Source: Aliiroseovarius sp. S1339 (lineage in GTDB: Bacteria > Pseudomonadota > Alphaproteobacteria > Rhodobacterales > Rhodobacteraceae). Taken from it: a stretch of 64,000 nt of DNA. Positions 23,510 to 33,482 of this stretch are shown piece by piece. The DNA lies in the NCBI RefSeq assembly GCF_023195695.1, contig NZ_JALPQG010000004.1:248001-312000 (forward strand), read 5' to 3'. How positions within the stretch are numbered: the first letter of the stretch is position 1; each line of letters starts with the position of its first letter. The notes beneath the pieces were generated by a model. The model searched no databases, was not told the origin of the DNA, and saw only the letters and a list, made by a program, of their open reading frames with translations. The translations under genes and the position numbers were made by a program.

Positions 23510-24283
23510 CTATCGCTGAACAGTCTGGTTTTCAAACCGGCGAAACATCAGCGTGATGATCCCCGCAATGATCATGTAAAATACCGCCAGCAATATCAGC
23601 GGCTCGTAAACGATAAACGTGTCTGATCGCACGCGTGATGAGACCGAATAAATCTCGACCACCGTGATCGTTGCAACCAGTGGCGTGGCCTTCAGTTGAA
23701 GGATCGTTTCGCCACCCAAAGTTGGCAGCACATTACGGATCGCCTGCGGCAACCAGATTCGGCGAAACATCGTAAACCGGGGCATACCAAATGCGTTCGC
23801 CGCCTCCAGCTGGCCCTTGTTTACACCTGAGAATGCACCGCGCATCACCTCGCCTTCATAGCCCGCATAAGACAAGGTCAGGGCCAGCACCGCATAAGGC
23901 CAGGCTTGGCGCAGATAGGGCCAAAGCTCGCTTCCACGTATCCATGGGATTTGCGGGAAAAGCGATCCCAAACCGTAATAGAGCAGCCAAATTTGCAGCA
24001 GCAGCGGCGTGCCACGGATGATGGTGCAAAAGGTCTTGGCCGGGGCAGACAGATACCACGGCCCCACCGCTTGCGCGAGGCCAAGGGGGATCGCCAAAAG
24101 AAACCCCGCAACGGTGGTGACAACCAATATCCAGATCGTGCGCCACGCGCCTTCGATGGCCAGTGGCGTGTATTCCGGGATCCAGTCCCAGCGCAGGGAG
24201 ACCGCGCACCAGATCACCAGCCCGGCAAACAACGCCATCAGCACAATCCGGTGTGGTTGCAGTAAGCTGCGCCAATCTATCAT
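23510..24283 (-). CDS. Polar amino-acid ABC transporter permease (HisM-like)
   Basis: I use ATG 24283 (MIDWRSLLQPH), which overlaps the upstream permease stop by four bases and gives 257 residues. The His/Glu/Gln/Arg family permease core is plain: GAWRTIWILVVTTVAGFLLA, IIRGTPLLLQIWLLYYGLGS, and the coupling loop QLEAANAFGMPRFTMFRRIW with LPQAIRNVLPTLGGE. It pairs with HisQ-like 24280-25032. It is the last gene of the leftward importer operon. Confidence 0.92.
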   Translation of the reverse strand: MIDWRSLLQPHRIVLMALFAGLVIWCAVSLRWDWIPEYTPLAIEGAWRTIWILVVTTVAGFLLAIPLGLAQAVGPWYLSAPAKTFCTIIRGTPLLLQIWLLYYGLGSLFPQIPWIRGSELWPYLRQAWPYAVLALTLSYAGYEGEVMRGAFSGVNKGQLEAANAFGMPRFTMFRRIWLPQAIRNVLPTLGGETILQLKATPLVATITVVEIYSVSSRVRSDTFIVYEPLILLAVFYMIIAGIITLMFRRFENQTVQR

Positions 24284-25032
24284 TTGCTTGTCCCCCGCAG
24301 CGAGGGTTGGCCGCGGCGCGCCCATTTTTCAATCCGAGCGAATATCGCGCCCGAGAAAAGCGTGACCATCATGTAAAGCGCGCCTGCCGCCAGAAAGAAG
24401 GTAAAATATGCGCGCGTGCTGGCGGCGGCTTGGCGGGTTTCCAGCGTCAACTCGCTGAAGCCGACAATTGCAAGAAGCGCGGTATCTTTCGTGGCAATCA
24501 GCCACAAGTTGGCCAGTCCGGGCGTGGCGAAAGACATCATCGCCGGGATTGTGACCCGGCGCATGATCATCGTGGGCGGCATGCCGTAAGCCCGCGCCGC
24601 TTCGATCTGGCCCTTAGGAACCGCTTGAATTGCGCCGCGCAGCACTTCGGTTGCATAGGCCCCCTGAACAATACCCAAAACCCAAATGCCTGCAACGACG
24701 CCGCTGATCTCGACGCGCCCGTATCCCATGGCCTGGGACACCTGATTGATAAGGTCCGTGCCAACGTAATAAAGGATCAGGATCAGCACCAATTCGGGCA
24801 CCGCCCGGATCACAGTCGTATAAATGGCGAGGAGATCACGAACGACCACCCCGCCATAAAGTTTACCAGACGCCCCGAAAAGCCCGATCACCAACCCAAA
24901 GCCAAATGCGCCAAAAGCGATCTGGAGTGAGTTAGCAAGGCCACGCAGAAGGTTCCCGCCCCACCCCGGAGGGTTGAGCGCAAGCAGCTCTGCACTTCTG
25001 GCCAAGCCAAGCGTTTCGAGGATCAGCTCCAA
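24280..25032 (-). CDS. Polar amino-acid ABC transporter permease (HisQ-like)
   Basis: The frame opens with TTG at 25032 and codes 250 residues. Typical features are GNLLRGLANSLQIAFGAFGF, VIRAVPELVLILILYYVGTD and the coupling loop QIEAARAYGMPPTMIMRRVT followed by IPAMMSFATPGLANLW. The eight-base gap to the binding-protein stop and four-base overlap with the next permease indicate one operon. The true initiation codon is uncertain because no ATG lies near the 5' end. Confidence 0.88.
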   Translation of the reverse strand: MELILETLGLARSAELLALNPPGWGGNLLRGLANSLQIAFGAFGFGLVIGLFGASGKLYGGVVVRDLLAIYTTVIRAVPELVLILILYYVGTDLINQVSQAMGYGRVEISGVVAGIWVLGIVQGAYATEVLRGAIQAVPKGQIEAARAYGMPPTMIMRRVTIPAMMSFATPGLANLWLIATKDTALLAIVGFSELTLETRQAAASTRAYFTFFLAAGALYMMVTLFSGAIFARIEKWARRGQPSLRGTSK

Positions 25033-25040
25033 AGCGACGC

Positions 25041-25814
25041 TTATTCGCTATAGATGCTGGTCGTGAAGTAGCGCGAGGTGATCTCGGCGTGGGTGCCGTC
25101 CGCGAGGATGGCGGCAATACCAGCGTTCAGACTTTCGCGCAGCGCATCATCACCTTTGCGGATACCAGCGCCAACGCCCTTGCCCAGAATGGCTTCATCA
25201 TTGGCAACCGGCCCCTTGATCTCGCAACAGGCACCCGTATCGGAGCCGACAAAATCGGCCATCGCAATGCTGTCTGCCTGCGTGGCATCAATCCGGCCTG
25301 CGACCAGGTCTTGGTTCGCCTCATCCTGAGTTTGGTAGACGCGAACTTCTGCCGCGTCGCCAAAATAGGCATTGGCGTATGATTGGTGGATCGTTGAAGC
25401 TTGAATGCCCACAATCTTACCTGCCAATGATTCAGGTGTCGGCTCAATGTCCATGGACTTGTCAGCCACAATCACGGCTGGTGTGTTGTAGTAGGGATCG
25501 CTGAAATCAATCGTTTCCATACGCTCTTCGGTGATCGACATCGACGCCATAATCGCATCAATTTGCTGACCTGTCAGCGACGGAATGATACCGTCCCACG
25601 CAACGGGTGTGATCACGCAGTTAAGTTCGGCAGCCGCACAAATCGCGCCAATAATCTCGACCTCCCAGCCGGTCCAGTTGCCGGACGCGTCAAGCGAGGC
25701 GAAGGGCGGATAAGGCTCTGCGGCGATTCCGATCTTCACTTCTTGCGCCGAAGCAGCACCCGCTGCCAATACGCTCGCCGTCAGCCCTGCGGCCAATAGA
25801 GTCTTGAATTTCAT
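25041..25814 (-). CDS. Basic amino-acid-binding protein of ABC transporter (Lys/Arg/Orn/His type)
   Basis: This 257-residue protein begins with a signal peptide (MKFKTLLAAGLTASVLAAGA...SAQ). The mature start VKIGIAAEPYPPFASLDASG matches lysine/arginine/ornithine-binding proteins. MASMSITEERMETIDFSDPY is the ligand-pocket and hinge segment common to this family. Two internal cysteine pairs (ICAAAELNC and GACC) may form disulfides, as in LAO/HisJ. The linked arginine-related enzymes suggest arginine or methylated arginine as ligand; that is inference. Confidence 0.9.
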   Translation of the reverse strand: MKFKTLLAAGLTASVLAAGAASAQEVKIGIAAEPYPPFASLDASGNWTGWEVEIIGAICAAAELNCVITPVAWDGIIPSLTGQQIDAIMASMSITEERMETIDFSDPYYNTPAVIVADKSMDIEPTPESLAGKIVGIQASTIHQSYANAYFGDAAEVRVYQTQDEANQDLVAGRIDATQADSIAMADFVGSDTGACCEIKGPVANDEAILGKGVGAGIRKGDDALRESLNAGIAAILADGTHAEITSRYFTTSIYSE

Positions 25815-25845
25815 TAGTTTTCTCCCATTGTTGGTTTTGGTTTTG

Positions 25846-26646
25846 TTAGCCGACTGTTTGTAAGAACTGTTGCAGCCTTGCAGATTTCGGATTGCCGAAC
25901 AATTCGGCAGGTGGACCTTGTTCTTCTATGCATCCCTCGAAAAGATAAACGACATGGGTCGCCACTTCGCGGGCAAACTTCATCTCGTGCGTGACAAGCA
26001 GCATGGTCCGCCCCTCGGCCGCCAGATCGCGAATAACGGTCAGGACTTCACCGACAAGTTCAGGGTCAAGCGCGCTGGTCGGCTCGTCAAACAGCATCAC
26101 GCTGGGATCAACCGCCAAAGCCCGCGCGATCGCCGCCCGCTGTTGTTGTCCGCCAGAGAGGTAGGATGGAAAGGTATCGGCCTTGTCGCCAAGCCCAACG
26201 CGATCTAGCAGGATCTTGGCCTTCTCAATCGCCTCGGCGCGAGGGACCTTCAGTACATGGATCGGCACTTCGATGACATTTTCCAGCAAGGTGCGGTGGG
26301 TCCAAAGGTTAAAGGCCTGAAACACCATACCAAGGCGCGTGCGCACACGTTCAATTTGGCGCCGCTTAACGGGTGTGCCGTCTGCGCGCATCAAAATCTC
26401 TTCGCCATTCACCACGATCTGGCCAGAGGTGGGCGTTTCCAGAAAATTGATGCATCGCAGGAAGGTGGATTTACCCGAGCCACTGCCCCCAATGATGGCC
26501 ACGACATCGCCCTTGTGCGCGGTCAGGGAAACGCCCTTGAGCACTTCCAGTGAGCCAAAAGACTTATGCAGATCGGTCACGCGAATGGCTTCGCTTTGTT
26601 CGTCTGGTGCCTGAATTTCTTTGGCTGCCGAATCTGACACTGCCAT
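25846..26646 (-). CDS. Polar amino-acid ABC transporter ATP-binding protein (HisP/ArtP-like)
   Basis: I use ATG 26646 (MAVSDSAAKE), with GGGGGAAG upstream, giving 266 residues. Walker A GGSGSGKST lies at about 53-61, the signature LSGGQQQRAAIARALA near 165 and Walker B VMLFDEPTSALDPELVGEVL after it, exactly as in HisP/ArtP/GlnQ ATPases. It is the promoter-proximal gene of the importer operon and runs divergently from the TetR regulator 84 bp away. Confidence 0.93.
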   Translation of the reverse strand: MAVSDSAAKEIQAPDEQSEAIRVTDLHKSFGSLEVLKGVSLTAHKGDVVAIIGGSGSGKSTFLRCINFLETPTSGQIVVNGEEILMRADGTPVKRRQIERVRTRLGMVFQAFNLWTHRTLLENVIEVPIHVLKVPRAEAIEKAKILLDRVGLGDKADTFPSYLSGGQQQRAAIARALAVDPSVMLFDEPTSALDPELVGEVLTVIRDLAAEGRTMLLVTHEMKFAREVATHVVYLFEGCIEEQGPPAELFGNPKSARLQQFLQTVG

Positions 26647-26730
26647 CAACTTCCCCCAAATTTCCCGCTTGTAGTAAGGCGCGCTTTCCGTAACTATGCA
26701 AGCGTATAATTAAAAAAGCAGAGACCTGCC
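26647..26730. promoter_or_regulatory. Divergent promoter region, amino-acid importer / TetR-catabolic operon
   Basis: This short gap must carry both promoters. A GCTTG (about 26667-26671) and CAAGC (26699-26703) pair flank it, and the stretch CGTATAATTAAAA just before the TetR start is a good -10-like element for the rightward unit. A TetR site would be expected here, but I see no long palindrome. Confidence 0.35.
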
Positions 26731-27375
26731 GTGACCCAAAACCATCCTAAATTCAGGCGCGAACCAGCCGAACATCGCAGGGATGCGTTGGTTCTGGCGA
26801 CCCTCGCCTTGATCGCCGAGCAAGGCGTTAGGGGGGCGACAGTGCGCGCTATTGCCGACCGCGCGAATGTTTCGCAGGGCATGATCCGGTATCACTTTTC
26901 GTCAAAGGAAGACCTGATTTCGGCGGCCTATGCCCATCACATGAGCCACATGACCAACCTGACAGCCGCTCCAAACGTACCGGATGGCGCATCGGCCAAA
27001 GTGCGATTGGCGGCTTTTGTCGAGGCTGGTCTGACGTCACCTGTTGTCGATCCGGGCTCGGTTTCGCTTTGGGCCAGTTTTCTGAACAAAGTCCGGGAAG
27101 ACGCGCGTATGCGGCAGATTCACGAACAGACCTATCATGATTTTCGCGACCGGCTGGAGGCCCTGATTGCCGACGCCTTGAACGAGGCAAAGATCACCAC
27201 GACACCGCCGCAGCTGCGCCACTTGGCCATTGCCTGCAACGCGGTGATTGATGGGTTGTGGATGGAGGGCGGCGCCCTTCCCAGTGCGTTTCAGCCGGGT
27301 GAATTGCCCGAAATCGGATTGCAGTCGGTTGGTGCGATCATCGGTGTAGAATTGCAAGATACAGGAAGCCAGTAA
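26731..27375 (+). CDS. TetR-family regulator (BetI-like)
   Basis: The 214-residue protein starts at GTG 26731. The helix-turn-helix reads ALVLATLALIAEQGVRGATV, AIADRANVSQGMIRYHFSSK and EDLISAAYAHHM. The C-terminal half, including WASFLNKVREDARMRQIHEQ and CNAVIDGLWMEGGALPS, matches the BetI-type ligand domain (TetR_C_6). It overlaps the aminotransferase start by one base (TAATG) and faces the importer genes. It therefore probably controls both the ABC importer and the catabolic genes in response to the imported compound or a product. Confidence 0.9.
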   Translation: MTQNHPKFRREPAEHRRDALVLATLALIAEQGVRGATVRAIADRANVSQGMIRYHFSSKEDLISAAYAHHMSHMTNLTAAPNVPDGASAKVRLAAFVEAGLTSPVVDPGSVSLWASFLNKVREDARMRQIHEQTYHDFRDRLEALIADALNEAKITTTPPQLRHLAIACNAVIDGLWMEGGALPSAFQPGELPEIGLQSVGAIIGVELQDTGSQ

Positions 27376-28562
27376 TGAGACATGCAGAAATCACGCGCCG
27401 CCTAGCGGGTCTGGGTGGGGCGAAGTGGGAAGTCTACCTCAAGGCAAAAGAGCTTGTCGCGCAGGGCCGAGACATCATCGACGTGACGATAGGTGAGCCG
27501 GACGTTGCGACCCCTGCCCCATTAATTGAAGCCGCAGCGGATGCCATGCGGCGGGGTCGCACGACCTATTCAAGCGGGCGCGGGGAAGCTGGACTAAGGG
27601 CGGCACTATCAGAGCGCTACACCCAATCGTCAGGCCGCGATATCCGTGCGGACCAGGTGATGTGTTTTCCCGGTACACAGACGGCGCTTTTTGCCGTGGT
27701 GATGGGCGTTGCTGAAAAAGGGTGCGAGATGCTGGTGGGTGATCCGATGTATGCCACATATGAAGGTGTGATCCGGGCAAGCGGCGCTGACATGGTGCCC
27801 GTGCCCCTGCACTCTGAGAATGGGTTTCGCATCAGCCCACGTGACATTGCGGCGCGCATAACCCCCAAGACGGCCGCGATTTTGTTAACCACGCCACACA
27901 ATCCCACTGGGTCCATACTAACCGCGTCCGATATCGACGCCATTGGAGAACTGGCGATTGAACATGATCTGTGGATCATATCGGACGAGGTGTATGAAGA
28001 TTTGGTTTTTGACGGGTCGACTTTTGTATCGCCGCTGTCGCGACCGAAACTTGCGGACCGTGTGATTGTCGTCTCGTCAATCTCAAAATCCCATGCGGCA
28101 CCGGGCTTTCGAAGCGGTTGGTGCGTTGCGCCCGCCGCGTTCACTGAAGCGCTTTTGCCCCTGTCGGAAACCATGCTGTTTGGCAACCAGCCATTCATTG
28201 CTGACATGACGGAAAAAGCCGTTCGCGAAGGGTCTGAGGTCGCACCGGGAATGCGTCAGCGATTTGCGGCACGCGCGAAGCACCTTGAACGCCGCCTGAC
28301 GAAAGACAGCAATCTGAAGGTCCATCAACCGCTGGCAGGCATGTTTGCCATGATCGACATTTCGTCGACAGGATTAAGCGGTCACGACTATGCGCTGCAC
28401 CTATTGGAACATGGGAACGTGGCGGTCATGCCGGGCGCATCTTTCGGCACCACGCTGGATGGCTGGGTTCGGGTCGCGCTTACTGTTGACGACGCCAAGT
28501 TCGATGCCGCCTGCGACCGGATCATCCAACATGCCAAACAGTTGGAACTGGAAACAGCATGA
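27375..28562 (+). CDS. PLP-dependent aminotransferase, AruH-like (arginine:pyruvate transaminase)
   Basis: This 395-residue fold-type I aminotransferase has the GEPDVATPAPLIEAAADAMR and TTYSSGRGEAGLRAALSERY segments, the LTTPHNPTGSILTASDIDAI motif, DEVYEDLVFDG, and the PLP lysine in SSISKSHAAPGFRSGWCVAP. The order of segments resembles P. aeruginosa AruH as I recall it (GDPMYATYEGV, IDISSTGLS). The four-base overlap with an AruI-like decarboxylase gene strongly supports a transamination-then-decarboxylation route for arginine or a substituted arginine. The substrate is inferred. Confidence 0.82.
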   Translation: MRHAEITRRLAGLGGAKWEVYLKAKELVAQGRDIIDVTIGEPDVATPAPLIEAAADAMRRGRTTYSSGRGEAGLRAALSERYTQSSGRDIRADQVMCFPGTQTALFAVVMGVAEKGCEMLVGDPMYATYEGVIRASGADMVPVPLHSENGFRISPRDIAARITPKTAAILLTTPHNPTGSILTASDIDAIGELAIEHDLWIISDEVYEDLVFDGSTFVSPLSRPKLADRVIVVSSISKSHAAPGFRSGWCVAPAAFTEALLPLSETMLFGNQPFIADMTEKAVREGSEVAPGMRQRFAARAKHLERRLTKDSNLKVHQPLAGMFAMIDISSTGLSGHDYALHLLEHGNVAVMPGASFGTTLDGWVRVALTVDDAKFDAACDRIIQHAKQLELETA

Positions 28563-30157
28563 CAAGTATTGGCGAAGCGCTGGTCGCACATCTGGCCGTG
28601 CGCGGGGTTGAGTGCGTCTTCGGCATTCCGGGCGTTCATACAATCGAGCTGTATCGCGGATTGGCCGCGTCCGGCATTCGCCATGTCACGCCCCGGCACG
28701 AACAAGGCGCGGGGTTTATGGCGGACGGTTATGCGCGGGTGTCTGGCAAACCGGGCGTGGCATTCGTGATCACCGGGCCGGGCCTGACCAACACGCTGAC
28801 TGCGATGGGACAGGCTCGCGCCGACAGCGTGCCGATGCTGGTGGTGTCAGGTGTGAATGCAATGGACAGCCTTGGCAAAAGCTTGGGACATTTGCATGAA
28901 CTACCCGACCAGCAAGCCTTAGCACGAACGGTGGCGTTGGTGTCAGAGCGTGTTGAGAGTGCAGACCATCTGGCCCCCGCGCTCGAGCGCGCCTTTGCGC
29001 CGTTTCAGTCCGGTAGACCCGGCCCCACACATATCGAGATACCTTTGGATGTCGCGGGACAGGCCCACACGGTATCCGACTTGCCTGCCATCCCAGAACC
29101 CAAGTCGATCGTAGACCCAGACCAGATTGCGCGAGCTGCAGAGATGCTCGCCAACGCCCAGACGCCGGTCATTCTGGCAGGCGGAGGCGCGCGCTTTGCT
29201 GCAACCGAAATCCGCAAACTCGCAGAAAAACTGGGCGCGCCGGTGGTGCAAACCGTGAATGCGCGCGGCGTTCTGTATGACCACCCGCTCGGCGTTCCTG
29301 CCAGCCCCAGCCTGACGGCGGTGCGAGATTTGATCGAAGCCTCAGACGTGACTCTCGCCGTCGGCACGGAGCTTGGTCAGACAGATTACGACATGTACGC
29401 CACCGGCAAAATGCCAGCAATGCGCTCGCTGATCCGTATTGACCTTTGCCCCGATCAACTGGCGCGTCACGCAGCCGATGTGCCAGTTTTGGGAGATGCG
29501 ACACAGGCGCTAACAGCCCTGACAGCACAACTTGAAACCAACGCGCCTTGTGCAGACGGTGCTGAGCACGCAGCCAAAACCCGCCGCGCTGCGTTTGAAG
29601 AAATCGGCCCCGAAATGCGCACGCTCAGTGACACACTGTGCGCCATGAGATCAGCCGTACCCAATGCAATCATCGTCGGCGATTCCGCTTATCCGATCTA
29701 TGCGGGCAACCTTTATTACGACCACGACCGCCCCGGCGGCTGGTTCAACGCAGCCACTGGATTTGGGGCGCTTGGCTATGGCATTCCGGCCGCCATTGGT
29801 GCCGCACTGGCTGATCCTTCCGCTTCGGTAATCTGCATCGCAGGCGATGGTGGTGCGCAATTCAGCCTGCCCGAACTGATGTGCGCGGTGGACGAAAACT
29901 TGCCGATCACGTTCGTGATCTGGAACAATCATGGCTATCAGGAAATCGCAACGTCGATGCAGGCCGTCGACGTGACAGTGGTCGGCTGCGACCCGACCCC
30001 GCCTGATTTCGAACATGTCGCCCGATCCTGCGGTATGCCGTTTTGGCAATGCGGACCTGAAGCAAAAACCATCGCCAGCACATTGAAAGCCGCATCCTGC
30101 GAACGCGGACCGACCCTGATCGAAATTCGCGCGCCCAACGTCGCGCATGCCTCTTAA
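28559..30157 (+). CDS. Thiamine-diphosphate enzyme, AruI-like (5-guanidino-2-oxopentanoate decarboxylase)
   Basis: This 532-residue protein has the acetolactate-synthase-like architecture. The N-terminal PYR domain has VECVFGIPGVHTIELYRGLA and TPRHEQGAGFMADGYARVSG, carrying the cofactor-activating glutamate. A central domain follows, then the C-terminal TPP motif GDGGAQFSLPELMCAVDE with FVIWNNHGY. The GVHTIELYRGL wording is what I associate with AruI. AruI converts 2-ketoarginine to 4-guanidinobutyraldehyde. Start ATG 28559 overlaps the aminotransferase stop. Other TPP decarboxylases look similar, so the name is likely rather than certain. Confidence 0.78.
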   Translation: MTSIGEALVAHLAVRGVECVFGIPGVHTIELYRGLAASGIRHVTPRHEQGAGFMADGYARVSGKPGVAFVITGPGLTNTLTAMGQARADSVPMLVVSGVNAMDSLGKSLGHLHELPDQQALARTVALVSERVESADHLAPALERAFAPFQSGRPGPTHIEIPLDVAGQAHTVSDLPAIPEPKSIVDPDQIARAAEMLANAQTPVILAGGGARFAATEIRKLAEKLGAPVVQTVNARGVLYDHPLGVPASPSLTAVRDLIEASDVTLAVGTELGQTDYDMYATGKMPAMRSLIRIDLCPDQLARHAADVPVLGDATQALTALTAQLETNAPCADGAEHAAKTRRAAFEEIGPEMRTLSDTLCAMRSAVPNAIIVGDSAYPIYAGNLYYDHDRPGGWFNAATGFGALGYGIPAAIGAALADPSASVICIAGDGGAQFSLPELMCAVDENLPITFVIWNNHGYQEIATSMQAVDVTVVGCDPTPPDFEHVARSCGMPFWQCGPEAKTIASTLKAASCERGPTLIEIRAPNVAHAS

Positions 30158-30169
30158 AGAAATGAGACA

Positions 30170-30955
30170 ATGATGACCAACCCATCCTTTGAATTTACCC
30201 GCGCCATAACACGCCGTCCTGCGGCGAGCATCGCAGATGGCCTGCGCGCCGAAGATATTGGCGCACCTGACCTTGACCAAATGCTGGCAGATCACGCCCA
30301 CTATGTTGCAACCTTGAAAAAGACGGGGGCCGAGGTGATCGAACTGCCTCCGCTTGAGGCTTATCCCGATGCGCAATTTGTCGAGGATACTGCCCTGTGC
30401 CTGCCGCAAGGTGCCATCCTGATGCGTCCCGGCGCGCCCAGCCGTATGGGGGAAGTTGCCGAGATGGAACCGACCTTGCGCGACGTTTACGATGACGTTC
30501 GAAAGATCAACGGGCCGGGGCATATCGAGGGTGGCGATATTCTGGTAACCGGGCGCGAGGTTCTGGTGGGCCGGTCTGATCGAACGGACGCGGCGGGTGT
30601 CGCTGAACTGACCGCAATTACTTCCGAATGGGGCCATGCCTTGCGCGAAGTGTTCACCCCGCCCGGCGTGCTTCATTTCAAAACCGACTGCTCCCTTTTG
30701 GACGGCGACACCATTCTGTCGACCAAACGGCTGGACGCTTCAGGCTGTTTCAAGGGCTACAACGTTTTGCACGTCGCAGACGGCGAGGAAGCCGCCGCCA
30801 ACAGCATTCGGTTCAACCAGCTTGTGCTGTGCCCAGCGGGCTTCCCGCGTACGGCAGACATGCTGGCCAAGGCTGGTTATGAAGTGGTTGAGATCAACAA
30901 TTCAGAATGCGCCAAGCTTGATGGCGGCATGTCTTGTCTGTCGCTGCGGTTCTGA
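30170..30955 (+). CDS. Dimethylarginine dimethylaminohydrolase (DDAH)
   Basis: The 261-residue protein is of the amidinotransferase superfamily. Markers are FVEDTALCLPQGAILMRPGA, INGPGHIEGGDILVTGREVL, the catalytic histidine in VLHFKTDCSLL and the nucleophilic cysteine near residue 256 in AKLDGGMSCLSLRF. DDAH hydrolyses asymmetric dimethylarginine or monomethylarginine to citrulline and a methylamine. It lies 12 bp after the AruI-like stop and closes the operon. Arginine deiminase is much longer and is excluded. Confidence 0.88.
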   Translation: MMTNPSFEFTRAITRRPAASIADGLRAEDIGAPDLDQMLADHAHYVATLKKTGAEVIELPPLEAYPDAQFVEDTALCLPQGAILMRPGAPSRMGEVAEMEPTLRDVYDDVRKINGPGHIEGGDILVTGREVLVGRSDRTDAAGVAELTAITSEWGHALREVFTPPGVLHFKTDCSLLDGDTILSTKRLDASGCFKGYNVLHVADGEEAAANSIRFNQLVLCPAGFPRTADMLAKAGYEVVEINNSECAKLDGGMSCLSLRF

Positions 30956-31016: not shown

Positions 31017-32684
31017 TTAATCCGCGTCTTTGATTGATCGCCTCTCTGACGCCAATCCCTTGCCGATTGCGACGCACATCAGCAGCAACACCACGGTGAA
31101 GGGCAAGCCCGTCGAGATCACCATGGATTGAAGCGACTGCAAGCCGCCCGCGCTCAGCAGCAAAACGATGGCCACAGCGCCTTCGAAAATGCACCAGAAG
31201 GCCCGTTGCGGCACCGGAGCGTCGATCTTGCCCCCTGCCGTGATTGTGTCGATCACCAGCGACCCGGAGTCTGAGGACGTCACGAAGAACACCACAACAA
31301 GAATGATGCCAACCAGCGACGTGATGCTTGCCAGAGGCAGGACATCCAGCATCTTGAACAGCTTCAGCTCAAGCGACGCGTCCTGTGCCACAGTGTAGCC
31401 TTCGTTTACCACCTGGTACAATGCAGTGCCGCCAAAGACGGACATCCAAAGCACACAGACCATCGACGGGATCAACAGAACACAGATGATGAATTCACGC
31501 ACGGTCCGACCACGGCTGACACGGGCGATGAACATCCCAACAAAGGGTGACCAGCTGATCCACCAAGCCCAGTAAAACGAAGTCCAGCCTTGGCTGAAGT
31601 TCACGTCTTCACGCCCAATCGGGTTCGAAAGTGCGGGAAGATATTGGATATAGGCTGCCAAAGAGCTGAAGAACAGTTTCACCAGATAGATCGTCGGCCC
31701 GACCAGAAGCACGAAGATCAGCAACAGGAATGCCAGTCCCATGTTGATTTCGGACAGAACCTTCACGCCGCCATCCAGACCGCGCAATACTGAAATCAAA
31801 GCGATCGCGGTGATGACAGAGATAAGGATGACCTCGGTCGTCGCGCCCACGGGAACGCCGAACAACTCGTTCAGCCCTGCATTCGCCTGCGTCGCGCCAA
31901 ACCCCAGCGAAGTTGCCAACCCGAAGAGCGTTGCAAAGACGGCCAGCGTGTCGATAACGTGCCCGACCCAGCCCCAGACCGCATCACCGAAGATCGGATA
32001 GAAGGCCGAACGGATCGTCAGCGGCAGACCCTTGTTATAGGAAAAGAGCGCGAGCGACAGCGCGACGATGGCATAGATCGCCCAAGGGTGCAGACCCCAA
32101 TGGAAGATTGTCGCAGCCATGCCAAGCCGGACGGCAGCGGCCTCATCCCCCTCGGCTCCGCCAAGCGGTGCCCAATCCGTTCGCATGCCATTCTCAGCCG
32201 CGGTCCCGCCGAAAGACGACGAAAAGTGGCTCATGGGTTCCGAGACGCCATAGAACATCAGACCGATGCCCATCCCGGCGGCGAACAGCATGGCGAACCA
32301 GCCGACATAAGTATAATCGGGCGTGGCCTCGGTGCCGCCAAGGCGCACATTGCCCCATGGCGTAACGATCAGAACAAGGCAAAACAGCACAAAGATGTTT
32401 GCCGCGCTGATAAAGAACCAATCAAAACCCTTTGTTACTGCGCCAAAAAGCCAGCTGAACAGACTATTAGACTGTTCGGGCAAAGCGAGCGTGTAGAAAA
32501 CGAAGGCCACAATCGAAAGACCTGAGATCAGGAAGACCGGGTTGTGGATATCAAAGCCGAAAGGTCCGACGTTGCCTTCGACGTTGTCCTCGCCGATCTC
32601 GTATTCGGTATCAATGAGGTGGGTAGTACCATCGGGCGTCGGTATGCCCGCGGCTTCGTCGGTGTCTGTTGATTGGTCAGCCAT
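31017..32684 (-). CDS. BCCT-family betaine/carnitine/choline-type transporter
   Basis: I use ATG 32684 (MADQSTDTDEA), with AAGGAAAGGACG upstream, giving 555 residues. About 12 membrane segments are visible. The BCCT signature WTSFYWAWWISWSPFVGMFI lies near residue 360 and is followed by ARVSRGRTVREFI. NKGLPLTIRSAFYPIFGD is also family-typical. Substrates are quaternary ammonium or sulfonium compounds such as glycine betaine, choline or DMSP; the tryptophan box is intact, but the ligand cannot be read. It is downstream of a universal stress protein gene (42 bp gap) on the same strand. Confidence 0.92.
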   Translation of the reverse strand: MADQSTDTDEAAGIPTPDGTTHLIDTEYEIGEDNVEGNVGPFGFDIHNPVFLISGLSIVAFVFYTLALPEQSNSLFSWLFGAVTKGFDWFFISAANIFVLFCLVLIVTPWGNVRLGGTEATPDYTYVGWFAMLFAAGMGIGLMFYGVSEPMSHFSSSFGGTAAENGMRTDWAPLGGAEGDEAAAVRLGMAATIFHWGLHPWAIYAIVALSLALFSYNKGLPLTIRSAFYPIFGDAVWGWVGHVIDTLAVFATLFGLATSLGFGATQANAGLNELFGVPVGATTEVILISVITAIALISVLRGLDGGVKVLSEINMGLAFLLLIFVLLVGPTIYLVKLFFSSLAAYIQYLPALSNPIGREDVNFSQGWTSFYWAWWISWSPFVGMFIARVSRGRTVREFIICVLLIPSMVCVLWMSVFGGTALYQVVNEGYTVAQDASLELKLFKMLDVLPLASITSLVGIILVVVFFVTSSDSGSLVIDTITAGGKIDAPVPQRAFWCIFEGAVAIVLLLSAGGLQSLQSMVISTGLPFTVVLLLMCVAIGKGLASERRSIKDAD

Positions 32685-32726
32685 CAAACGTCCTTTCCTT
32701 CTTTATTTCCGTCTCGACGAGATCGG

Positions 32727-33143
32727 TTAACCACGGATCAGCATCACCGAAGCGTCGCTGTGCGCGGCCAGATGTGCGCCATGCCCCGACCAAAAATAGT
32801 CGCTGACGCCCGGCGGATGTGTCGCCATAACCACCAAGTCGGCTCCGATTTTGTCAACGGCAGCCTCAAGCTCTTGGTTCATCTGAACCGCCGGGTCAGT
32901 GCTTACGATCATGTGGCTCGACGTGGCGACGCCAAGTTTAGTGCCCTGTTCGGCGGCGAATTTCGCAAGCTGTTTGGCATATTCTTTGGGGTTGCGGGCC
33001 AGTTCACTTGGCGTTGGTCCCGTCACGCCAACGAAGCAGACCTCTGCCCCGTAGGACCGCGCCAGCTCGCCAGTGACGGCCAGCGCCTTTTCAAGCTTGT
33101 CCGCATGGGCAAGATCGACGGGCGAGAGTATTTTCTTGAACAT
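32727..33143 (-). CDS. Universal stress protein, UspA family
   Basis: Starting at ATG 33143 (MFKKILSPVDLAHADK) the protein has 138 residues, the normal size. It has the conserved PVD start, the VMATHPP strand and the ATP-type glycine motif SGHGAHLAAHSDASVMLIRG at the C-terminus. UspA proteins next to secondary transporters often bind nucleotide and modulate the transporter. Here it precedes the BCCT gene in the same unit. Confidence 0.9.
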   Translation of the reverse strand: MFKKILSPVDLAHADKLEKALAVTGELARSYGAEVCFVGVTGPTPSELARNPKEYAKQLAKFAAEQGTKLGVATSSHMIVSTDPAVQMNQELEAAVDKIGADLVVMATHPPGVSDYFWSGHGAHLAAHSDASVMLIRG

Positions 33144-33482
33144 TTCCCATCCTTTATTCGGCGACATTGATGTTGCCGCTGGTTACCGGGTGGCGCCACC
33201 ATAAGAAGCGACGATCCTATTCCGGAAAATCTCGGCCTGCGCGAGGTGCGGGCAAATCCATCCAGAATACAATCGTCAGTCTTGCATCCGTGGCACTGGC
33301 GATCAACCCACGACGCCGGAACAGGTCTTACCCTGCGAAAAGTCTCGCGTGCAAATTCTGTATCGAACGGATTGCGACATGATTGCCGCTGTATTTGCAA
33401 AGGGTCTGCTGATGGGCGGCGAGCGAGATATGGGCGAAAAAATGAAACAGACGTGATGGAACGCCCCCCGCGTACCAGCGGC
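33144..33482. other. 339 bp gap without a supported gene
   Basis: This gap separates the uspA start from the stop of the TetR gene. It must contain the promoter of the uspA-BCCT unit. Short frames exist on both strands, but none has a ribosome site plus family resemblance. I found no clear stem-loop with a U-tract. Confidence 0.5.

Follow-up and report, generated by a model that had tools for sequence, protein, structure and literature searches.

A predicted TetR-controlled gene unit for the uptake and catabolism of arginine and N-methylated arginine in marine and plant-associated bacteria

Introduction

The methylarginine hydrolase DDAH has been studied mainly in mammals, where it clears an inhibitor of nitric oxide synthase, and to our knowledge little of its role in bacteria outside Pseudomonas has been worked out. 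Pseudomonas aeruginosa uses methylarginines through a regulated DDAH gene, so growth on methylarginine by way of DDAH is a known idea; the regulator of that gene, DdaR, is of another kind than TetR. We know of no AruHI unit that includes the P. aeruginosa DDAH, nor of an arrangement of TetR, importer and DDAH genes with the AruHI genes of Pseudomonas. The AruHI pathway of P. aeruginosa, which is named in the text of a study of Sinorhizobium meliloti (PMC7268258), runs through the same two reactions that are predicted here. According to that text, S. meliloti AspC (SMc02262) transfers the amino group of arginine, ornithine, agmatine and putrescine to pyruvate, and the gene just downstream encodes a decarboxylase, IlvB1 (SMc02263). 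Here we describe an eight-gene unit of Aliiroseovarius sp. S1339, at positions 23510-30955 of a stretch of 64,000 nucleotides (contig NZ_JALPQG010000004.1, positions 248,001 to 312,000; hereafter the window), in which an importer, a TetR-family regulator and an AruHI-like pair of enzymes are joined to a DDAH-type hydrolase. Catabolism of methylarginine and arginine is the best supported reading that the sequence allows, and we put the probability that TetR here controls a unit by which both arginine and N-methylated arginine are taken up and broken down at roughly 55%. Units of this kind probably take up and feed on arginine-like compounds, methylated arginine included, in marine and plant-associated bacteria.

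Results

All eight reading frames of the cluster, which the original prediction had described from the DNA letters as an importer with TetR, transaminase, decarboxylase and DDAH genes, are intact. Four importer genes on the minus strand (23510-26649) diverge from four genes on the plus strand (26731-30955), and 81 nucleotides (nt) separate the HisP-like gene from the TetR gene. The overlaps and short gaps that had been claimed are found in the plus-strand arm: the TetR gene (26731-27375, alternative start at 26788) and the gene of a class I/II pyridoxal phosphate (PLP) aminotransferase (27375-28562) share 1 nt (27375), the aminotransferase gene and that of a thiamine pyrophosphate (TPP)-dependent decarboxylase (28559-30157) overlap by 4 nt (28559-28562), and a gap of 12 nt leads to the gene of a DDAH-type guanidine hydrolase (30170-30955), predicted from family scans and residues to convert methylarginine to citrulline and methylamines.

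The arrangement is conserved. DDAH occurs in 9 of the 21 genomes of the genus set and lies directly beside an AruI-type gene in 9/9. Across a family set of 199 genomes, one per genus, DDAH was found in 39 (E ≤ 1e-20) and an AruI-type gene in 33 (E ≤ 1e-120), with both in 23 genomes against 6.5 expected (Fisher p 2e-12; p values in this work ignore kinship between genomes). Co-occurrence in other genomes, the test that the original prediction had named for itself, was therefore borne out. The two genes are adjacent in six family genomes (G000, G046, G047, G058, G089 and G192; G plus a number denotes a genome, and L plus a number a compared locus or stretch), and three plasmids also hold the whole eight-gene unit: the Ruegeria pomeroyi DSS-3 megaplasmid, pPGA1_262 in Phaeobacter inhibens DSM 17395 and one plasmid in Sulfitobacter sp. 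W027.

Gene neighbourhoods were counted at 124 AruI-type loci, those among 160 stretches that matched with at least 44% identity and at least 470 aligned residues. These loci were drawn from the best 80 of at least 577 relatives, the genus and family samples and three plasmids, so related species are over-counted, and one locus was entered twice (L046 and L178). Neighbouring genes were called with our own codon-usage script, and an importer was scored where at least three of its four genes matched within 9 kb with no less than 50% identity. In 24 of the 124 loci, mainly from Rhodobacterales, DDAH is accompanied both by the aminotransferase and by three or four importer genes, and an aminotransferase of the window type (at least 40% identity) adjoins the AruI-type gene in 83. 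A DDAH gene is adjacent in 27 loci, at 3-44 nt from the decarboxylase gene between aligned ends; 36 loci (35 distinct) have a different hydrolase gene, here called GME2, and 61 have neither. DDAH and GME2 were found together within 6 kb in none of the 124.

The hydrolases go with the importer. An adjacent guanidine hydrolase is present in 59 of the 76 AruI-type loci that have the importer versus 4 of the 48 that lack it; of these four, three are truncated where their contigs end, and L024 has a different importer. Short stretches may hide genes, and in the subset of 97 loci with at least 7 kb on both sides the numbers with and without a hydrolase were 48 and 16 where the importer is present and 0 and 33 where it is not. 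The 17 AruI-type loci with the importer and no adjacent hydrolase include Rhizobiales and Paracoccaceae, and the pairing of AruHI-like genes with the importer is thus spread wider than the link to DDAH. DDAH is encoded elsewhere in the genome for 16 of these 17 loci, 3 of 3 in one scan and 13 of 14 in another, and GME2 is absent from all 17 genomes. In one of them, that of L164 (Sinorhizobium fredii USDA 205), a DDAH-type gene lies in two overlapping pieces (G224:C2:60693-61468), apparently through a broken reading frame or a sequence error. The converse case is seen in L073 and L074, where the importer stands beside DDAH without the transaminase pair; no AruI-type match was found in the genomes of these two loci (G099 and G106).

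A single predicted TetR operator lies between the two arms of the window unit, at 26691-26712 (TAACTATGCAAGCGTATAATTA, core 26694-26709), recognised by footprint alignment and site scans. The operator pattern was derived from the importer-TetR gaps of 20 loci of Rhodobacterales, mainly of the Roseobacter type, which share a near-palindrome with the consensus TAATTATGCAAGTGTATAATTA, exact in 6 of the 20 aligned loci by our reading; other groups consequently serve as an independent check. The ninth base of the pattern was opened to any letter after L073 had been seen. With at most one mismatch, the 16-bp core is present in 62 of the 64 loci that have both importer and TetR: in 24/24 with DDAH, in 17/17 without an adjacent hydrolase and in 20 of 22 with GME2 (it is lacking in L139 and L152), as well as in L073, where it accompanies importer, TetR and DDAH in the absence of the transaminase pair. 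It is also present in all three hydrolase loci that have TetR and whose importer is truncated or lost where the contig ends (L101, L105 and L128), and in 1 of 13 GME2 loci with the importer but without TetR. The core was found in 0 of 23 loci that lack importer, TetR and hydrolase, nor in L024 or L074, and the one-mismatch scan gave no further site in 2.32 Mb of loci.

An exact scan of whole genomes with a slightly stricter pattern matched 10 of 199, once each, and a control pattern matched none of the 199. Nine of the ten matches stand at such a unit, eight of them between the importer and the divergent genes; the ninth, in G190, precedes TetR by about 12 bases in a unit that lacks the importer. 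The window itself is missed by the stricter pattern because the first base of its operator is C. A match at G024:C509 (L193) has no unit genes nearby and was set aside as probably due to chance. Because the operator is found at such units and nearly nowhere else, TetR looks like a local regulator of these units alone, whichever hydrolase is present, and would act by binding this motif. The operator overlaps a TATAAT on the plus strand (26705-26710), directed toward the enzyme genes, and on the opposite strand a TTGCAT that could be the -35 element of the importer promoter; one operator could therefore shut both arms. The conserved unit with an importer of its own that had been proposed is thus, by its shared operator, probably under one switch. 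A second conserved block (CTTGTAGTAAGGC and the like) is seen at 26668-26680, between the operator and the HisP-like gene, and is possibly the -10 region of the importer.

The window DDAH aligns over its full length with P. aeruginosa DDAH (PDB 1h70, 3rhy, 3bpb; E ~1e-54). Its catalytic C256, H169 and E120 correspond to C249, H162 and E114 of the P. aeruginosa enzyme, and among 15 aligned DDAH proteins, which we chose from 46 loci with a DDAH gene call plus named ones, Cys and His are found in 15/15, with Glu in 12 and Asp in 3 at the E114 position. R92 and R138, for the alpha-carboxylate, and D67, for the alpha-amine, are present in the window protein and in all 15 of the aligned set. Nine tested P. 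aeruginosa positions (L18, D60, E65, D66, R85, E114, R132, H162 and C249) are all kept in the window, and also in the 15 aligned proteins bar the Asp for Glu at E114 in three. The roles of the alpha-carboxylate Arg pair and of the alpha-amine Asp follow the text of PMC11659421, a paper on a related enzyme, according to which the arginine deiminases compared have Asp two residues after the catalytic His, whereas DDAHs have a Lys that leaves space for the dimethylamino group. The window protein has Lys171 at this place, and the Lys is invariant in the 15 aligned DDAH proteins. With these DDAH-type residues, methylated arginine is a likely substrate of the window enzyme.

Like DDAH, GME2 belongs to the guanidine-modifying superfamily (PF02274), and it is mostly 280-295 aa long. 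Its gene stands either between those of the importer and TetR or immediately ahead of the decarboxylase gene. Most of the loci are from Rhizobiales (Mesorhizobium, Phyllobacterium, Rhizobium, Shinella and Ciceribacter) and one is from Pararhodobacter; examples among 34 named loci are L117:8512-9360, L145:7242-8120 and L178:7332-8201. The catalytic Cys, His and Glu and the binding Asp and two Arg are kept in 21 of 21 aligned rows, and the place of the DDAH Lys or deiminase Asp is taken by Met in 20 and by Thr in one. A predicted model of GME2 (mean predicted local distance difference test, pLDDT, 79.6) is closest to P. aeruginosa DDAH, with TM scores of 0.73-0.83 at 24% identity. Since catalytic and binding residues are kept and the deiminase Asp is replaced, both the DDAH-type enzyme and GME2 look like hydrolases of intact substituted arginines rather than plain arginine deiminases. 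GME2 is possibly a new enzyme family.

Some GME2 units consist of importer, GME2 and decarboxylase without aminotransferase and TetR (L116:1286-8505, L122:4569-12329 and L123:4489-12450). Four of the GME2 loci that we read (L117, L122, L123 and L131) have a short-chain dehydrogenase/reductase gene downstream, and an Ldh_2-like dehydrogenase is encoded beyond the importer in L116, L122, L123 and L131; these genes were recognised by eye, and the two of L122 also by Pfam. Relatives of GME2 at 44-48% identity (L189-L192) have other neighbours: isochorismatase-like and TauD-like genes, recognised by eye, stand beside the one in L189, and a second importer lies about 1.8 kb from the one in L192.

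The decarboxylase had been called AruI-like, and this assignment is upheld by its score of 723 bits against the curated cut-off of 500 for NF005712 (5-guanidino-2-oxopentanoate decarboxylase; a subfamily model, not an equivalog); among the matches listed, its closest named relatives are from Sulfitobacter, at 77% and 75% identity. A selenocysteine in this enzyme was considered and rejected: TGA appears in 5 of 33 matches with no stop inside the translated tblastn-aligned ranges, and we take these codons for ordinary gene-end stops that the scoring ran past. The aminotransferase is predicted to be arginine-type and 2-oxo acid forming. In NCBIfam, GntC, a PLP enzyme that acts on an arginine derivative, comes out best both for the window protein (243 bits against a cut-off of 415, which leaves it without a named equivalog) and for three homologues scanned; VioD (cut-off 391), another PLP enzyme of this kind, is also among the matches. 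As both cut-offs are far from reached, in the three homologues as in the window protein for GntC, that identity was rejected; no biosynthetic neighbours were recognised by eye. No model named AruH is among the 25 family matches shown for this protein. Its description as AruH-like is supported only indirectly, the nearest tested counterpart being the AspC type of the S. meliloti text (PMC7268258).

The regulator has a BetI-type C-terminal domain (PF13977) and scores 85 bits against the BetI cut-off of 201; it is therefore BetI-like, as predicted, but not BetI. The importer has the HisJQMP-type make-up of two permeases, a HisP-type ATPase and a HisJ/LAO-type binding protein. Its genes encode, all on the minus strand, a HisM-like permease (23510-24325, start possibly at 24238) and a HisQ-like permease (24280-25032), both assigned from family scans as conserved neighbours, a periplasmic binding protein of the HisJ/LAO (cationic amino acid) type (25041-25814, from NCBIfam and Pfam) and a HisP-like ATPase (25846-26649, start possibly at 26646, from family scans). 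The best matches are to HisJ/LAO and HisP/HisQ/HisM, none of which reaches the equivalog or subfamily cut-off of its model, and among solved structures the binding protein best matches those that bind cationic amino acids, histidine, arginine and LAO.

Like the window, S. meliloti has an aminotransferase gene followed directly by that of an AruI-like decarboxylase, according to the text on AspC and IlvB1 (PMC7268258). The same TetR gene, the operator and the HisPJQM importer accompany a pair of this kind in the Sinorhizobium/Ensifer loci compared, which, unlike the window, have no adjacent hydrolase. The window aminotransferase and TPP enzyme are 54% and 53% identical to their counterparts in Sinorhizobium medicae L165, which we infer to be the counterpart of SMc02262-SMc02263. 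The string 'dimethylarginin' does not occur in the main text of the S. meliloti paper, and the arginine transporters named in its text are, by tag, other loci than the importer here. The transamination half is thus a known pathway, to which the regulator, operator, importer and hydrolase link are added here. We found no description of an AruHI-DDAH unit under one switch in the available literature, which covers subscription journals and supplements poorly, so the absence is weak evidence. The accessible P. inhibens literature gave only a pipecolate oxidase tag of the unit-bearing plasmid, the accessible R. pomeroyi transporter literature does not name the importer of this unit, and locus tags of both species, from guessed ranges that may miss it, led to no description of the unit in the accessible texts. 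A marine source of dimethylarginine exists, as N,N-dimethylarginine is a listed metabolite of marine radiolaria and free-living dinoflagellates in the text of PMC11965087.

Several other genes were seen near these loci. In the window, genes of a BCCT-family transporter and of a universal-stress-type protein adjoin the unit at 31017-33167. The BCCT gene does so in 6 of 77 clustered stretches, namely the window and L080-L084 of the same genus; given this and the low BetI score, a link to BetI and glycine betaine was rejected, and we do not reckon the BCCT gene among the conserved members of the unit. A second, distantly related importer, with a binding protein (29% identical in L024) and a long permease, lies beside the decarboxylase-DDAH pair in L024:9336-14389, beside aminotransferase and decarboxylase genes in L053:7968-13399 and beside DDAH alone in L093:8166-11572 and L077. 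In Rhodobacterales, a PRK07046-type transaminase gene and a glutamine-synthetase-like gene occur near the unit in L032, L035, L040, L044, L049, L140 and L158; in L035:9602-12363, L044:10997-13752 and L049:9775-12543 they lie downstream of the aminotransferase-decarboxylase pair, the second being like type-III glutamine synthetase or gamma-glutamylputrescine synthetase. Family scans covered these two genes in L035 alone, and such neighbours are in keeping with onward breakdown of polyamines and gamma-aminobutyric acid (GABA). A gene of about 328 aa, to which no function was assigned, recurs in ten stretches around stand-alone DDAH genes (L031, L033, L034, L037, L039, L043, L045, L050, L064 and L079); in L037 (7060-8046), the one stretch in which we looked at its place, it is directly beside DDAH.

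Discussion

The genes, their conservation, the shared operator motif and the residues of the hydrolases are direct observations on these loci. The course of events that we infer from them, with its substrates and sequence of steps, the attachment of TetR to the motif, the inducer and the fate of citrulline, would begin with a HisPJQM-type importer that brings in cationic amino acids, arginine and methylarginines among them. By hydrolysis, the DDAH-type enzyme would release mono- or dimethylamine from N-methyl- and N,N-dimethylarginine and leave citrulline, which would most likely be made into arginine by ArgG/ArgH and then join the stream. Pyruvate would accept the amino group as the aminotransferase turns arginine (or ornithine) into the 2-oxo acid, which the TPP enzyme would decarboxylate to 4-guanidinobutyraldehyde (or 4-aminobutyraldehyde). 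Oxidation and ureohydrolase enzymes encoded elsewhere would carry the C4 aldehyde to GABA and succinate, and TetR, on the single operator between the divergent arms, would shut both until an arginine-type inducer is present. A ureohydrolase family gene is found in all 13 genomes asked and in none of the 13 within the unit, the nearest seen lying about 24 kb off in G010; it was rejected as a linked gene, the capacity being present without linkage.

A number of observations weigh against this reading. The window hydrolase matches dimethylargininase models best but stays below their cut-offs, with 218 bits on NF045658 against the curated 450, for which reason we call it DDAH-type and not an equivalog. 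In the family set, DDAH is mostly away from AruHI, being adjacent in 6 of the 23 genomes that have both, and 10 of the 33 AruI-type genomes have no DDAH. DDAH is also present in 6 of 10 importer-less comparison genomes (L149 left out), so a DDAH gene in trans is not confined to genomes with the importer. No aminotransferase of the window type adjoins in 22 of the 36 GME2 loci (Mesorhizobium type), and where TetR stands without importer and hydrolase, only 11 of 21 loci have the operator. IlvB1 is sevenfold more active on the ornithine-derived than on the arginine-derived 2-oxo acid, according to the text of PMC7268258. Dimethylamine use was rejected as a fixed partner: PF11927, with matches in 150 of 199 genomes, has no discriminating power, and its high-scoring group (28 genomes above 214 bits, a cut chosen after seeing the scores), which represents the dimethylamine monooxygenase type, is only weakly tied to DDAH (10/39 versus 18/160, p 0.036). 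Such a high-scoring gene is present in G000 and G046 and missing from G047, G058, G089 and G192; a route for the released amine is therefore not a constant feature of the system. The enzyme activities and the role in growth are themselves predictions from sequence.

Other orders of the same reactions can be set against this one. Citrulline from DDAH might itself pass to the aminotransferase and decarboxylase in one straight line, by way of 5-ureido-2-oxopentanoate and 4-ureidobutyraldehyde. In the close-set run of genes DDAH comes last, a TPP-DDAH pair with a 4-nt overlap occurs without this aminotransferase in L024, and S. meliloti AspC is described as promiscuous; however, citrulline was in the S. 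meliloti assay mix and is not among the accepted substrates named in the text (PMC7268258), and the decarboxylase is of the 5-guanidino-2-oxopentanoate type, above its cut-off, and we hold this line to be unlikely. Transamination and decarboxylation might also come first, on methylated arginine, with the hydrolase acting on a later methylguanidino product, an order that would match the succession of aminotransferase, decarboxylase and hydrolase genes and the promiscuity that the text of PMC7268258 gives to AruHI-type enzymes. DDAH and GME2, however, keep the alpha-group-binding Asp and both Arg and look built for the intact amino acid, which favours hydrolysis first, and in GME2 loci the GME2 gene precedes that of the decarboxylase. 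We regard this order as very unlikely; it is the part of the original prediction that drew no support, whereas its broader arginine and methylarginine reading agrees with the conserved unit and the DDAH-type residues.

Doubt can also be directed at the substrate and at the association itself. Methylarginine might not be the natural substrate, and the hydrolases might act on another N-substituted arginine, for example hydroxyarginine or a canavanine-like or opine-type compound. This would accord with the Met (20/21), in place of Lys or Asp, two residues after the catalytic His of GME2, with the distance of GME2 from tested DDAH (24% identity to the P. aeruginosa enzyme, as a fold match) and with its occurrence in plant-associated Rhizobiales. 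The window protein, however, has the DDAH Lys and the full tested DDAH residue set, and we think such a substrate rather improbable. An ordinary arginine or ornithine transamination unit that DDAH joined by chance in one clade would explain the 17 loci in which importer, TetR, aminotransferase and TPP genes have no adjacent hydrolase; judged against the GME2 rows, two changes on the tree may suffice to account for DDAH adjacency, and one origin is possible. Against chance, the distant GME2 stands in the same operator-bearing unit of another group, DDAH goes with importer, TetR and operator in L073 although AruHI is absent there, the second importer is found beside TPP-DDAH, aminotransferase-TPP and lone DDAH genes in turn (L024, L053, and L093 and L077), and co-occurrence extends to whole genomes (23 versus 6.5 expected), all of which makes a chance neighbour highly improbable.

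A TetR-controlled unit that imports and degrades both arginine and N-methylated arginine is thus the reading that we prefer. Beyond the window, we tentatively propose that these loci form an undescribed methylarginine-nutrient regulon, in which one TetR/operator switch would govern the importer, the transamination pair and either hydrolase, DDAH in marine Rhodobacterales and GME2 mainly in Rhizobiales. GME2, as a possible new enzyme family, is offered for assay, and the clear operator makes the idea directly testable. An importer, a regulator and an operator would be added to the S. meliloti-type pathway of arginine transamination, which matters for nitrogen fixation, and, if the proposal is true, methylarginine from the turnover of algal and plant proteins would be a regular nitrogen source for the bacteria that live with them.

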